64,000 bases of DNA from Candidatus Acutalibacter stercorigallinarum (lineage in GTDB: Bacteria; Bacillota; Clostridia; Oscillospirales; Acutalibacteraceae). The notes below the pieces were generated by a model. It was not told the origin of the DNA. It did no database searches and saw only the letters and a program-made list of their open reading frames with translations. Made by a program: the position numbers and the translations under genes. The stretch is from assembly GCA_019112625.1 (NCBI GenBank), contig DXIW01000013.1:32960-96959 (forward strand), written 5' to 3'. This document shows, one piece after another, positions 10,040 to 60,847 of the stretch. Positions within the stretch are counted from its first letter, which is position 1. Each line of letters starts with the position of its first letter.

Positions 10040-11062
10040 TTATGAATCTTCGGCCGGGCCGGAGGGGTCCGGCTTTTTCTTTTCCTGGCTGGGGGTCACC
10101 TTGGACAGGGGGTTCGCGTTGATGGCGGACTCCATCTGGGTGCTGGAGGTGTGGGTGTAGATCTCGGTGGTGCCCAGGTTGGCGTGGCCCAGGATGTCCT
10201 GGAGGACACGGATGTCCACGTTGCCGTAGCGGTACATGAGGGTGGCGGCGGTGTGGCGCAGCTTGTGCACGGAATAGCCGGGGCCGCTGAGGCCGATTTT
10301 CTCCAGGTATTTTTTGACCAGGTGCTGGACGGTTTTGGGGCTGATGCGCTTGCCGCGGTTGCTGAGGAACAGGGCGTTGCGGTCGATGACGCCGTCCTTG
10401 GGGCGGACCGCCAGGTAGGCGGCGATGGAATCGAGACAGGCCTGGTTGAGGTAGACGATGCGCTCTTTGTTGCCCTTGCCCAGGATGCGCAGGGTGTTGT
10501 TGTTGCGGATTACGTCGTTGAGGTCGATGCCCACCAGCTCGGAGAGGCGCATGCCGCAGTTGAGGAACAGGGTGAGGATGCACCGGTCCCGCTGGGCGTC
10601 CGGGCCGTCCACGGCGTTTAAGAGTTCGATACTTTGTTCGAGGGATAGGAAATGGGGAAGGGCCTTGGCTTTTTTGGGCGGGGTCAGGTTTTCCGTGGGG
10701 TCCTCGTCCAGCAGTTTTTCGTGGGCGGTGAGATAGTGGAAAAAGGATTTGAGGGACGTGGCCTTCCGCTGGCGGGTGGAGCTGATATTATTGCGCTCGT
10801 CCGCGATGAAGTTCATAAACTCGAAGATCTCGTAGGAGGACACGGCGCGGAGGGACTCCAGGTCCAGGTCGCGGACAGTGATCTCGTCCTGGGGCGCATC
10901 GGCAGCCACCAGGCCCCGGTTGATTTTTAAGAAGCGGAAAAAGGTGCGCAGGTCCAGACAGTATTCGTCCACGGTTTTGGGCGACAGGCCGCGGACATTC
11001 CGCAGGTACATGGCGTATTGCTGGGCCAGCTGCGGCATTTCATCTTTGATGGAAAAGCTCAT
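10040..11062 (-). CDS. Tyrosine recombinase, XerC-like
   Basis: SAM-like N-terminal domain; catalytic set R (GMRLSEL), K, HKLRHTAATLMYR, GHANLGTTEIYTH. Confidence 0.92.
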   Translation of the reverse strand: MSFSIKDEMPQLAQQYAMYLRNVRGLSPKTVDEYCLDLRTFFRFLKINRGLVAADAPQDEITVRDLDLESLRAVSSYEIFEFMNFIADERNNISSTRQRKATSLKSFFHYLTAHEKLLDEDPTENLTPPKKAKALPHFLSLEQSIELLNAVDGPDAQRDRCILTLFLNCGMRLSELVGIDLNDVIRNNNTLRILGKGNKERIVYLNQACLDSIAAYLAVRPKDGVIDRNALFLSNRGKRISPKTVQHLVKKYLEKIGLSGPGYSVHKLRHTAATLMYRYGNVDIRVLQDILGHANLGTTEIYTHTSSTQMESAINANPLSKVTPSQEKKKPDPSGPAEDS

Positions 11063-11087
11063 GGCGGTTTTCTGCGATCCTCCCCTG

Positions 11088-11117
11088 AATTATACAAAAT
11101 ATTGATTTTGTATAATT
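11088..11117. promoter_or_regulatory. Perfect palindrome upstream of the recombinase gene, overlapping TATAAT on both strands
   Basis: AATTATACAAAAT-ATTG-ATTTTGTATAATT, 13-bp perfect arms. Confidence 0.75.
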
Positions 11118-18737: not shown

Positions 18738-19760
18738 TTACTCGCTGTGGTCGCGGTCTTTCAGCTCGGACTTTTTGATGAGGCGGCCGTTGACGTAGAC
18801 AAACTTGTCGCTGTCGTCCTCGTCCTCCTCTTCCCCATCGTCCTGGTTGAAGAGGCCGGAGAAGCGCTCGGACTCCTGGGGCTCCCCGGGCTGGCTTTCG
18901 GCCACACCGTTTTTCTCCCGCTCCAGGCGCTCCTGGTAGGGCTTGATCAGGTAGCGGTCGATGAGGGGGTACACGGTGAAGTTCACCAGGAAGGAGAAGA
19001 AGGAGAAGAGCAGGAAGATGAGGAGCAGCAGGTAGATAAACACGGTGAGGGCGGTGAGGGGAATCACCATAAGGACCAGGAAGCCCAGGCCGCCGATGAT
19101 GACGGTGAGCAGCAGGTTCCGCAGGAAGCCGGCGATGGAGAAGATAAAGGCGTTTTTATAGGCCTGGCGGAAGGTGAGGTCGAAGGTGATGAACATCACC
19201 GGCAGGTAAAACTGGGCCCAGCAGAAGATGAGGGCCAGGAGGATGCAGATCCAGAAGGGGATGTAGAAGATCCAGTCCTGGGAGAGCTGGTTGCTGTAGT
19301 ACAGCAGGGAAAAGGAGAGCACCACGTAGACGGCGTAGACGATGACGCCGTTTAGGAGGAAATACTTCCAGTTGCCCTTGACCGCGTCCCAGAAGTCGGA
19401 CCAGACGAAGGCGTGCTCCTCCCGGGCGAAGTTGCGGGAGATGTAGGTGAGGCCCGCCGTAAAGGGCGACAGGAGCACCAGGGGCAGGGGCACCGCGTAC
19501 AGGACCCAAACGTCTACCTGCAGGGCCCCCGAGGTGGTGGGCAGCTGCAGCATGAAGTGGGTGGGGCACAGGTAGATGAGGAACATCAGGACGAAGGCCG
19601 CCAGGGTGGGCAGGAGGAAGATCAGGTTCGCCTGCACCAGCTTGGTGAATTTCCGGCCGAAGATCTCGAAGAAGCGGACAGGCGCCGCCTTGGGGGGCTC
19701 GTCCTTGCTGACGCCGGGACCGGGCTTGTCGTAATTTCCAAAAAGTCCTAAGAAAGCCAA
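18738..19760 (-). CDS. Multi-pass membrane protein (YesL/DUF624-like) with acidic C-terminal tail
   Basis: Several hydrophobic helices; NFAREEHAFVWSDFWDAVKGN motif region; tail DDGEEEDEDDSDKF. Confidence 0.65.
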   Translation of the reverse strand: MAFLGLFGNYDKPGPGVSKDEPPKAAPVRFFEIFGRKFTKLVQANLIFLLPTLAAFVLMFLIYLCPTHFMLQLPTTSGALQVDVWVLYAVPLPLVLLSPFTAGLTYISRNFAREEHAFVWSDFWDAVKGNWKYFLLNGVIVYAVYVVLSFSLLYYSNQLSQDWIFYIPFWICILLALIFCWAQFYLPVMFITFDLTFRQAYKNAFIFSIAGFLRNLLLTVIIGGLGFLVLMVIPLTALTVFIYLLLLIFLLFSFFSFLVNFTVYPLIDRYLIKPYQERLEREKNGVAESQPGEPQESERFSGLFNQDDGEEEDEDDSDKFVYVNGRLIKKSELKDRDHSE

Positions 19761-19808
19761 AAGACCAACTCCAATTCCAAAATAGATTTCCGCGCTGGTG
19801 GGCGCGCT

Positions 19809-20699
19809 TTACCCCAGTTTTGCCTTGGGGTGGCAGTCCTGATAGACCTGTTTGACATGGTTGTCCAGCAGCTGGACATAGACCTGGGTGGAGGAGATGT
19901 CCGCGTGGCCCATCATGGTCTGGATGTCCTTGACCGAGGCGCCGCCCTCCAGCAGGTGCAGGGCGAAGGAGTGCCGCAGGGTGTGGGGAGTGATCTCCTT
20001 GGTGATGCCGGCCTCGGTGGCATAGCCTTTGACAATTTTCCAGAAGCCCTGGCGGGTGAGCCTGCCGCCGTTTAGGTTGACGAACAGGGCGTTGCCGCTC
20101 TCCGGGCCGGTGATGAGCCCCCGCATGCGGTAGATGTAGTCGGACACGGCTACCACCGCGGAGGGGTACACCGGGATGGAGCGAATCCCCTTGCTGCCCC
20201 GGCAGTACAGCACGCCGGAGCGCAGGTTGATGTCTTTGATGTTCAGGTTGATGAGCTCGGAGGCGCGGATGCCTGTGGCGTAGAGCAGCTCCAGCATGGC
20301 CTTGTCCCGGCAGCCCTTGGGCTCGGTGATGTCCGGCTGGGCCAGGAGCAGCTCGATCTCGGCGCCGGACAGGACCTGGGGCAGCTTCTTCTCCGCCTTC
20401 TCCAGCTTGATGCCCTTGGCCGGGTTGGTGTCCATAAGGCCCCGGTAGATGAGGAATTTGTAGAAGCACCGCACCGAGGCCAGGTTCCGGGAGATGGTGG
20501 TGGGCGAGCGGTTCAGGTCGTGGAGGTGGTCCACAAAGCCCTGGATCTCCCCCTCCCCCGCCTCCTCGGGCAGGACGCCCTGCTGGGCCAGGTATTCCAG
20601 ATAGTACATGGTATCCCGCAGGTAAGACTCCCGGGTGTTGGCAGAATTGGGCTTCTGCTCCGAGAGGTACTCGCTGAATAAAGAATAGTAGTCCGTCAT
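19809..20699 (-). CDS. xerD: Tyrosine recombinase XerD
   Basis: TGIRASELINL, HTLRHSFALHLL, MMGHADISSTQVYV; next to spoIIM as in Bacillus. Confidence 0.92.
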   Translation of the reverse strand: MTDYYSLFSEYLSEQKPNSANTRESYLRDTMYYLEYLAQQGVLPEEAGEGEIQGFVDHLHDLNRSPTTISRNLASVRCFYKFLIYRGLMDTNPAKGIKLEKAEKKLPQVLSGAEIELLLAQPDITEPKGCRDKAMLELLYATGIRASELINLNIKDINLRSGVLYCRGSKGIRSIPVYPSAVVAVSDYIYRMRGLITGPESGNALFVNLNGGRLTRQGFWKIVKGYATEAGITKEITPHTLRHSFALHLLEGGASVKDIQTMMGHADISSTQVYVQLLDNHVKQVYQDCHPKAKLG

Positions 20700-20721
20700 G
20701 TCTTACCCACCCTCACCTTAC

Positions 20722-21363
20722 TTACAGATGAAAAAATACCGCAAAAACGGCTGCCGCCAAAGCGCCTGCCAGAGAGACCGCCACCGCCAGGCTGAGAGCA
20801 GCCAGGAGGTCCCTCCCATAGGCGGAAAAGCCGGGGGATGCCTCCCGGGCGGAACAGCCGGCCCGGGCCAGGCTGCTGGAAAAGGCCAGGGCCCGCACGC
20901 CGAAGGACAGGCACAGCAGGCAGAAGGCGGCCGCAGCCGGCAGATAGCAGAGCGCGGAACGGCAAAGGCCCAGAGGGCCCTCCCCCGCCAGAAACGAAAA
21001 GGCGCCGATGCCCGTGGCCACCCCCTTGAAAAAGAGGAGGGCCGGGACCCCGAAGGGGCCCAGCACGGAGAGGCCCAGCAGGAACAGCAGGCTCAGATAA
21101 AGGAGCCCATGGAGCAGGAACGTGGTAAAGCAGGGGAAAAAGCCCTGCTCCGCGGCGGGGATGCCGGAGAAGAGCAGGGGCACCCCGCGAAAGCCCTGGA
21201 AAAGCCCCAGGCCCACCGAAGCGCAGGAGCCCGTTATGACCCCTCCCAGGAGGAAGAGGGCCAGAAGCCAGAACGCGCCCCGGGGCGTCACCCGCCGGAA
21301 CAGGGGGACGCCGGGGAACAGAGAGCCCGGCGGATCGGGAAGCCTGTCTTTTTGTGGTCTCAT
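20722..21363 (-). CDS. spoIIM: Stage II sporulation protein M family
   Basis: Small hydrophobic protein with SpoIIM-type layout (FKGVATGIGAFSFL) next to xerD; likely start MRPQKD at 21363. Confidence 0.75.
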   Translation of the reverse strand: MRPQKDRLPDPPGSLFPGVPLFRRVTPRGAFWLLALFLLGGVITGSCASVGLGLFQGFRGVPLLFSGIPAAEQGFFPCFTTFLLHGLLYLSLLFLLGLSVLGPFGVPALLFFKGVATGIGAFSFLAGEGPLGLCRSALCYLPAAAAFCLLCLSFGVRALAFSSSLARAGCSAREASPGFSAYGRDLLAALSLAVAVSLAGALAAAVFAVFFHL

Positions 21364-21660
21364 GGTATGCACCTTCTTAGAAAAAGCGTTTCGGTACATA
21401 CCTATGGCCCCGGGGGACCGGCTATGCCCCGCCGGGGATATGGGAAAGCGGAATGGATACATATAAGATTTTACCGGGAAACCCAGGTTGCTCTTTTTTG
21501 CAAACAGGAGGGAATGGGACCGGATTTCATAAAGTTCCGTAAACTACATTCCCGGGGCGAAAAAAAGAGGGGGGCTTCCCCGCCCATCCGGGCGCAATCA
21601 CAAGATATGCCGCTTCCCCTTTGGAAAATGGGTATATCTTGGGGCGGGGACAGATGGCCA

Positions 21661-21950
21661 TAAATCTAGTATCCATGCGGGTTTTCCACATTTCCACAAG
21701 GTTTCCACAGCAGGAAATACCCGCTGTAAAGAAACACCCTGTGGATATATACTATAACCCATACGGGAGATTTTTTCAAGAGAAAATCACGAATATTTTT
21801 ACTTTTTTATTTCAACTTCGGGATTTTATGTATTTTATATTATGTTAACCAATGTATATTCCGAGGAAGTATTATGTTCCCTCCCCTAAATATTGTGTGC
21901 ATAAAAATACACATGGCAATACCATGTGTATTTTTCCCTCTCCCCTATTC
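21661..21950. other. AT-rich noncoding island with DnaA-box-like cluster, dif-like motif and hairpin
   Basis: TTTCCACA at 21683, 21691 and 21702; TGTGGATAT at 21740; long T/A runs; strongly contrasts with GC-rich surroundings. Confidence 0.6.
21903..21935 (-). terminator. Hairpin terminator downstream of the TIGR04086-like gene
   Basis: AAAAATACACATGG-CAATA-CCATGTGTATTTTT, 14-bp perfect arms. Confidence 0.8.
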
Positions 21951-21960
21951 TTTTTTGCGG

Positions 21961-22374
21961 TTAAAATTTCACCCGCTTTTTCCGGTTGACCCCCAGGACG
22001 CCCCCGATGGCGCCGCTGAGCAAAAGGGCGGCCAGCTTCCCCAAGGCGGCGGGGCCCAGGGTCTGGCCGGTGAAAAAGGCGGCGGCCCCCAGGCAGGCGG
22101 CGAACAGCGCCCCGCAGCCCAGGCCGTACCAGAGGCCCCTCTCCCCGCTGAGGAGGGAGGCGGTAAGTCCCCCGGCAAAGACGGCGGCGCAGCACAGGGC
22201 CGTGGCGAGCAGGGGCAGGAGGTCCCAGGGCATGAGGCCGGCTTTGGACAGGACCAGGGCCGCCCCGGCCAGCAGCAGAAGGGCGGAGGCGGCCATCACC
22301 CCGGCGGCGGACAGCAGGACTTTCACGGTTTTTCCCATAACAAAAGACCTCGCAGGCAAGTATGTGTGTTCCAT
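21961..22374 (-). CDS. TIGR04086-like small membrane protein
   Basis: Four predicted hydrophobic segments, usual position upstream of yajC/tgt/queA; start could be MGKTVK at 22338. Confidence 0.7.
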   Translation of the reverse strand: MEHTYLPARSFVMGKTVKVLLSAAGVMAASALLLLAGAALVLSKAGLMPWDLLPLLATALCCAAVFAGGLTASLLSGERGLWYGLGCGALFAACLGAAAFFTGQTLGPAALGKLAALLLSGAIGGVLGVNRKKRVKF

Positions 22375-25116: not shown

Positions 25117-25123
25117 AAAGGCA

Positions 25124-25281
25124 AATAGAGGCGCGGCTTTGCAAAAGTAGCGGGCGGGAGGTTTGCCAAAACCGGCGAAGCCCCGTGAAAGGGCGGGCCG
25201 CCGAAGGGCGCATTTGGCAGATGGGCCCTGGTTGTAACCGCGAACAGCGTTGCGACTGTCATCTTTATGATGGAGTGCTAT
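25124..25281 (+). ncRNA. Lysine riboswitch (L box)
   Basis: GAGGCGCGGC, AAAAGTAGCGG, GTGAAAGGGCGGGCCGCCGAAGGGCG, CTGTCATC...GATGGAGTGCTA consensus elements upstream of asd. Confidence 0.92.
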
Positions 25282-25352
25282 TTACCTTTCGTTTTTCCGG
25301 CGGGCTCGTTTGGTTGGAAAAACACAGCATTTCTATTATAAAGGATGGGCAG

Positions 25353-32814: not shown

Positions 32815-33092
32815 AAAGAAAACGCCCCCTGTGTTTCACAGAGGGCGATAGAGTATCGCGGTACCACCTCAGTTTACCGGGGCCTCACGGCCCGCGGCCT
32901 CATCGGGCGCACAGGAAAAGCCTGGATGCCCTTGCAGAGTAACGCCTGCAGACGGCCGCCTCTACTGACTTTGCGCGTTCCAGGCGGCAGCTCGGGAAGG
33001 TAGCTTCGGCCGTGCCCTGGTCCCGCTTCCACCAGCCGCGGGCTCTCTTTGCCATAACAGGCAGGGCCTACATGGTTCCGTCATCGCTGTTA
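32815..33092 (-). ncRNA. T-box leader of tyrS
   Basis: Reverse strand: perfect promoter TTGACA-17-TATAAT (33127..33099), T-box TGGTACCGCG (32866..32857), terminator CGCCCTCTGTG-AAA-CACAGGGGGCG-TTTTC (32847..32823). Confidence 0.95.
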
Positions 33093-33123
33093 GGAGTTAT
33101 TATACGGTGGGACGGGGGAATTG

Positions 33124-57568: not shown

Positions 57569-57629
57569 CCTTTCCTCCCGCCGCTGCTGGCGGGAGGATG
57601 TTTTTTGTGGAAAACGCTCTGTTCTTTCC

Positions 57630-59626: not shown

Positions 59627-60847
59627 ATGGCAGCGTTTGAGAAAATCCCCATGAAAACACCGCTGGTGGAGATGGACGGGGACGAGATGACCCGGGTCAT
59701 CTGGAAGATGATTAAGGACATCCTGCTCCTCCCCTATCTCGACCTGAACACGGAATACTACGACCTGGGCCTGGAGAACCGGGATAAGACGGGCGACCAG
59801 GTGACCATCGACTCTGCCGAGGCCACCAAGAAATACGGCGTGGCGGTAAAGTGCGCCACCATCACCCCCAACGCCGCCCGCATGGACGAGTACCACCTCC
59901 ACGAGATGTGGAAGTCCCCCAACGCCACCATCCGGGCCATTCTGGACGGCACGGTGTTCCGGGCGCCCATCCTGGTGAAGGGCATCACCCCCTACATTCC
60001 CAACTGGAAAAAGCCCATCACCATCGCCCGCCACGCCTATGGCGACGTGTACAAGAGCGTGGAGGCCCAAGTGCCCCAGGGCGCCAAGGCGGAGCTGCTG
60101 GTCACCAAGGCCGACGGCACGGAGGAAAAGTACCCCATTCACGAGTTTACCGAGAGCGGCGGCATCATCCAGGGCCTGCACAACCTGGACAAGAGCATCC
60201 AGAGCTTTGCCCGGGCCTGCTTCAACTACGCTTTGGACACCAACCAGGACCTGTGGTTTGCCACGAAAGATACCATCTCGAAAAAATACGACCACCGCTT
60301 CAAGGACATCTTTCAGGAAATCTATGACATCGAGTACGCGAAGAAGTTCCAGGAGGCGGGCATCGAGTACTTCTACACCCTCATCGACGACGCGGTGGCC
60401 CGGGTGGTCCGCAGCGAAGGGGGCTATATCTGGGCCTGCAAAAACTACGACGGCGACGTGATGAGCGACATGGTGGCCACGGCCTTCGGGTCTTTGGCCA
60501 TGATGACCTCGGTGCTGGTCTCCCCCGACGGCACCTGCGAGTACGAGGCCGCCCACGGCACGGTGCAGCGCCATTACTACAAGTACTTAAAGGGCGAGAG
60601 CACCTCCACCAACTCGGTGGCCACCATTTTCGCCTGGACCGGCGCCCTGCGCAAACGGGGCGAGCTGGACCAGAACGTGCCCCTGGTGAGCTTTGCCAAC
60701 AAGTTGGAGCGGGCCACCATCGAGACCATCGAGTCCGGCGTGATGACCGGGGACCTGGCCGCTATGTCCACCCTGCCCCAGGTGCAGCGGGTGGACACCG
60801 AGGGCTTCCTGCAGGCCATCCGCCAGCGGCTGGACGCCCTGCTGTAA
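59627..60847 (+). CDS. icd: NADP-dependent isocitrate dehydrogenase
   Basis: [40 protein letters not shown]. Confidence 0.95.

Follow-up and report, generated by a model that had tools for sequence, protein, structure and literature searches.

In the stretch of 64,000 nucleotides from Candidatus Acutalibacter stercorigallinarum analysed here (the window), the AT-rich interval between a spoIIM-like gene, which xerD follows, and the DUF3792 gene upstream of it is predicted from its sequence to be the promoter and control region of an operon comprising the spoIIM-like gene and xerD. An array of direct ACATAA units lies upstream of the predicted promoter and most likely binds XerD monomers, and we consider the chances evenly balanced that XerD regulates its own operon through these units. 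In relatives, the orthologous locus is located at the replication terminus, and a separate palindrome beside a XerC-like gene is probably the site at which chromosome dimers are resolved in this lineage.

The interval had been singled out in a first-pass annotation for a cluster of DnaA-box-like motifs next to AT-rich DNA, and these features are present. TTTCCACA occurs at 21683, 21691 and 21702 on the plus strand and TGTGGATAT at 21740, and the three copies of the former within 21661-21860 compare with a mean of 0.024 and a maximum of 1 in 2000 dinucleotide shuffles. The sole further TTTCCACA of the window is found at 57606, and two copies within 15 bp are unique to this spot in the window's own assembly (86% complete). 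GC content drops from approximately 65% to 34% over 21700-21899, in keeping with the otherwise GC-rich surroundings described earlier, and we likewise found no credible gene covering 21464-21960. The T/A stretch placed at about 21770-21850 is AT-rich as reported, but extends from approximately 21740 to 21935, where it ends in a perfect inverted repeat that is kept in most congeners and was not among the calls of a terminator scan with a GC rule. Strong conservation resides in this AT-rich part and not in the TTTCCACA boxes, and the easily unwound element proposed there reads instead as a promoter of the sigma-A type, oriented towards the spoIIM-like gene and xerD and preceded by the repeat array (table 1). 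Rfam families had zero matches to the AT-rich element or the leader; elsewhere in the window they identified a lysine riboswitch (25118-25288) and a T-box leader (32838-33093).

Table 1. Features of the xerD control region and of the XerC-like locus, in window coordinates.
Feature	Position	Strand	Remarks
XerC-like tyrosine recombinase gene	10040..11062	-	relatives keep all six catalytic residues
Perfect palindrome ATTATACAAAA-TATTGA-TTTTGTATAAT	11089..11116		27 bp upstream of XerC-like gene; candidate lineage dif
DUF624/MusI-like membrane protein gene	18738..19760	-	downstream of xerD
xerD	19809..20699	-	TIGR02225, 306 bits (cut-off 329.6)
spoIIM-like gene	20722..21363	-	213 aa; start corrected to ATG at 21363
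Sporulation-sigma-like promoter GCATA-N17-CATAGGTA	21399..21428	-	before spoIIM-like gene
Three TTTCCACA boxes	21682..21709	+	presumed 5' leader of minus-strand transcript
TGTGGATAT (ATATCCACA on minus strand)	21740..21748		at presumed transcription start
-10 hexamer TATAGT of sigma-A-type promoter	21751..21756	-	faces spoIIM-like/xerD; TATAGTA invariant in 17 congeners
-35 hexamer TTGAAA	21774..21779	-	congeners mostly TTGCAA; spacer 17 bp
Conserved AAAAATATTCG box	21790..21800	-	immediately 5' of -35
TACATAAAATC	21822..21832	-	holds promoter-proximal ACATAA unit; next unit 14 bp away
GGTTAACATAA unit	21840..21850	-	order-wide form AGTTTACATAA; matches dif XerD arm
GGAACATAATA	21870..21880	-	distal ACATAA unit
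Perfect 14-bp inverted repeat	21903..21935		loop of 5 nt, A and T runs on either side; probable DUF3792 gene terminator
TIGR04086/DUF3792 membrane protein gene	21961..22374	-	upstream of element

A DNA search among 24 congeners matched the region in 17 genomes (possibly counting the window's own), mainly from 21737 upward and at 66-80% identity; the SpoIIM-like protein has only 35-51% identity across congeners. On the minus strand the conserved blocks follow the order ACATAA units, AAAAATATTC, TTGCAA or TTGAAA, the 17-bp spacer and TATAGTA, with the ACATAA units and TATAGTA invariant across the 17 congeners with nearly no exceptions. We infer that the sigma-A-type site is an active promoter and that the AT-rich part is conserved in the congeners because it is the promoter region. 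Transcription from this site (21779-21751, minus strand) would produce a leader of approximately 380 nt followed by the spoIIM-like gene and xerD, and a putative promoter within the leader, which we take to be of the sporulation type, would provide a second input to the operon. The TTTCCACA boxes would then belong to the leader, as additional DnaA sites or as arms of RNA stems, and not to an origin. The xerD product matches the E. coli XerD structure 1a0p (E=6.7e-49), and its SpoIIM-like neighbor scores 29.7 bits against TIGR02831, under the cut-off of 100.2, with no match in Pfam. The leader also holds a palindrome, AACCTGGGTT (21480-21489), whose AACC/GGTT-type dyad is kept by almost every congener, a candidate for a regulator site or a second promoter.

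The order-wide consensus unit of the array, AGTTTACATAA, is the exact reverse complement (11/11 bases) of the right, XerD-binding arm of B. subtilis dif, TTATGTAAACT (PMC3025954), and it is on account of this identity that XerD is proposed as the binder. GTDB genomes supplied 80 named xerD loci, and a pair count covered the 76 eligible Oscillospirales loci among them. Of these, 43 carry a strict 14-bp ACATAA pair in the 2 kb ahead of xerD and on its strand, at distances of 0.2-1.8 kb; no such pair was found elsewhere in 1.34 Mb. The pair heads the operon irrespective of its first gene, be it spoIIM-like, proC or xerD itself (-172, -230, -326), and in other genera of the order the direct arrays are longer, their units spaced at 14 and 20 bp. 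Beyond the genus, an element-wide sequence model returned one clearly strong other genus only, and the 14-bp pair pattern used in its place matched 91 of 295 genomes of the order, usually once each. GTTWACATAA is in excess in two genomes, putatively owing to coding bias.

Bound 5' of the -35 hexamer, XerD monomers would control the operon that encodes them. The units lie approximately 45-100 bp upstream of the -35, so that upstream action or DNA looping would be likelier than simple occlusion of the polymerase. A search of open-licence papers for regulation of xerD brought up none. Several observations weigh against autoregulation. The strict pair is missing at 33 of the 76 xerD loci, and in the window species one unit only is near the full consensus. 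AT-rich Clostridia beyond the order have similar pairs away from xerD, and so do 11 of 30 fetched array loci within it, the remaining 19 having xerD, a spoIIM-like gene or proC adjacent. One strain (G250) has two further arrays approximately 230 kb from dif (C11, locus L311, 7280-7316 and 14848-14870), one of which adjoins the start of dnaE.

As in the XerCD/dif system (CodV-RipX/dif in B. subtilis), the array has the sequence of a XerD half-site, is found beside xerD and is located at the terminus. It differs in consisting of direct units 14 bp apart with no XerC arm, whereas dif has two inverted 11-bp arms around 6 bp. A canonical dif within the element was considered and rejected: a dif-like pattern had a sole match in one congener (G011), and this match is the element, whose arms are not inverted.

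The terminal position of the locus rests on relatives, since the window assembly is fragmentary (70 contigs, 86% complete). Orthologues lie opposite dnaA and, where measured, approximately 4 kb or less from the GC-skew flip. The skew of the Neglectibacter timonensis chromosome (G008, NZ_LT160640.1) is positive up to a flip at 633-634 kb and negative thereafter, and xerD with its element is found at 635.8-637.9 kb (element at 637.8 kb). For the complete genome G023 the corresponding positions are 1.770-1.771 Mb (flip) and 1.768 Mb (xerD). Skew in the window is positive across the locus, up to approximately 48 kb. The orthologous loci in G008 and G023 are thus near the skew maximum rather than the minimum at which oriC would be expected. 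The earlier remark that dnaA and dnaN are absent from the vicinity is borne out: the two genes are side by side with their own boxes on another contig (C56). An origin at the gap, the layout first suggested for it, is rejected on this gene context together with the skew position of the orthologues.

A search of the terminus for dif in relatives found a palindromic motif, ATTATACAAAA-N6-TTTTGTATAAT, immediately in front of another recombinase gene, which is XerC-like. Of 295 genomes searched in the order, 105 carry the motif, almost all of them once, and a reversed-pattern control was almost empty. It adjoins the XerC-like gene in the examined loci, even where xerD is 10 kb off, and two further loci have a variant, ACGCAACAAAA-N6-TTTTGTTGCGT, next to their XerC-like gene. 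In four single-contig genomes the palindrome is 45-52% of the chromosome from dnaA, and in G008 and G023 the skew flips at most 1 kb from it, a flip not seen in the fragmented window assembly. The palindrome is probably the dimer-resolution site of the lineage, and it looks like a symmetric dif module found across the order and new to the literature, as far as the open-licence papers checked are concerned; a search of these for the palindrome sequence gave nothing on dif or Xer. It resembles the sites of XerS/difSL and XerH/difH in its single copy, its terminal position in relatives and its place right in front of one recombinase gene (PMC2731167). Unlike the 31-bp difSL, it is perfectly symmetric (11-6-11, 28 bp) and of other sequence, and an xerD orthologue is also kept nearby.

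The palindrome and XerC-like gene of the window (10040-11116) are at least 8 kb from xerD, which belongs to the block at 18738-21462; compared with most relatives they are inverted and set apart from it. This arrangement, with no accompanying skew flip, is a candidate for a recent inversion or an assembly artefact. Another genome has two extra palindrome copies 2.5 kb apart (G309:C62:321 and 2859), the pattern that insertion of an element at dif would leave. One congener with no clear xerD (G004; loci L024, L028 and L030) has three copies of a classical-dif-like sequence, TTGCGYAAAATATGAATTATGTAAACTT, possibly the ends of Xer-using mobile elements.

Xer recombination is usually described in terms of two conserved recombinases with one asymmetric site in common, with single-recombinase exceptions in streptococci and lactococci and in the epsilon-proteobacteria. 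All six catalytic residues are present in 33 of 33 XerC-like proteins, including the canonical hairpin lysine column. In XerD, R, H, R, H and tyrosine are retained in 79-80 of 80 sequences and the lysine column of the GKGNKER hairpin in 0 of 80; a lysine is found somewhere else in the hairpin in 67 of 80, and a loss of XerD activity can for this reason not be claimed. It is conceivable, and we put it forward tentatively, that the Oscillospirales have a split system, in which the XerC-like enzyme would act alone at the palindromic dif and XerD would serve as a DNA-binding regulator and terminus organiser at the half-site array of its own operon. If so, an abundant gut order would have a further Xer arrangement, a symmetric recombinase-linked palindrome at the terminus combined with XerD half-sites put to new use in a promoter array, and recombination would be separated from the other roles of XerD. 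A role in terminus organisation would be directly testable in cultured species such as N. timonensis.

Two other accounts of the array have to be weighed. XerD sites at the B. subtilis terminus unload SMC and are XerD-type half-sites without a XerC arm, to which the array, judged by its sequence, is alike in type and in its terminal location. The array could accordingly be a landing site for XerD in terminus chromosome work, its place before xerD being secondary, with dimers resolved by the XerC-like enzyme at the palindrome. The terminal position of the orthologues, the separate symmetric dif and the contrast in the hairpin lysine column all fit such a landing site, which we nevertheless think rather unlikely: B. 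subtilis has several sites, whereas here there is usually one regularly phased array per genome, at the xerD promoter and not spread over the terminus, and XerD keeps most of its catalytic residues, a hairpin lysine often among them. Single XerD half-sites clustered around the terminus were not found. Alternatively, another transcription factor may bind the ACATAA repeats, and the match to the XerD arm would be fortuitous, a product of AT richness. Direct repeats rich in A and T frequently serve as operators, and similar pairs exist outside the order, not at xerD; the identity of all 11 bases to the B. subtilis arm, and an array placement that tracks xerD whatever gene intervenes, make this explanation improbable in our view.

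The boxes present a different problem. TTTCCACA is the most widely shared 8-mer of the congeneric orthologous leaders. It occurs in 8 of the 17 species, which are phylogenetically non-independent, with 13 copies in 4.4 kb, whereas 43 kb of flanks had 0 and shuffles gave 0.3. The conservation sought in the first-pass annotation thus holds as enrichment within the genus, but box positions shift between species, the dense cluster is confined to the window and its closest relative (L004), and no clear enrichment was detected upstream of xerD beyond the genus. In the predicted RNA fold the TGTGGATAT site pairs with a leader TGTGG, and the whole window leader has a z of -4.9 against shuffles. Loci L011 and L013 hold inverted TTTCCACA...TGTGGAAA pairs, and L014 has a related one that involves TGTTGAAA. 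The leader boxes could serve as RNA stem arms, as DnaA sites or in both capacities. Were they the arms of a structured leader RNA, the operon could be subject to attenuation, as the inverted pairs and the better-than-shuffled folds of most congener leaders would allow; with z-values in those leaders ranging from +0.2 to -3.5, and neither a common fold nor an Rfam match found, we regard attenuation as unlikely. A DnaA-dependent locus, either datA/DARS-like or placing the xerD operon under DnaA control, draws on a box cluster far above chance, its enrichment in congeneric leaders and the similar TGTGGAA boxes in the dnaA-dnaN region of the same genome. The locus does share with E. coli datA and DARS a non-coding cluster of DnaA-box-like motifs away from oriC, but it differs in that its boxes sit in an operon leader, at positions that are not conserved, and are able to form hairpins there, and we find DnaA dependence quite improbable. 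A second or alternative origin, suggested by the box cluster adjoining an AT-rich flank, is least credible, indeed scarcely tenable, given orthologues opposite dnaA near the skew maximum and an AT-rich block that reads as a promoter region.

A second conserved intergenic region with several TGTGGAAA-type boxes was observed upstream of a TrmH/RlmB-like RNA methyltransferase gene (L324, G000:C45:57500-63000, at approximately 60140-60268; also L325 and L303), with an inverted GTTTACATAA pair 118 bp apart in two genomes. This region is a better candidate than the xerD leader for a DnaA-box locus distant from dnaA.
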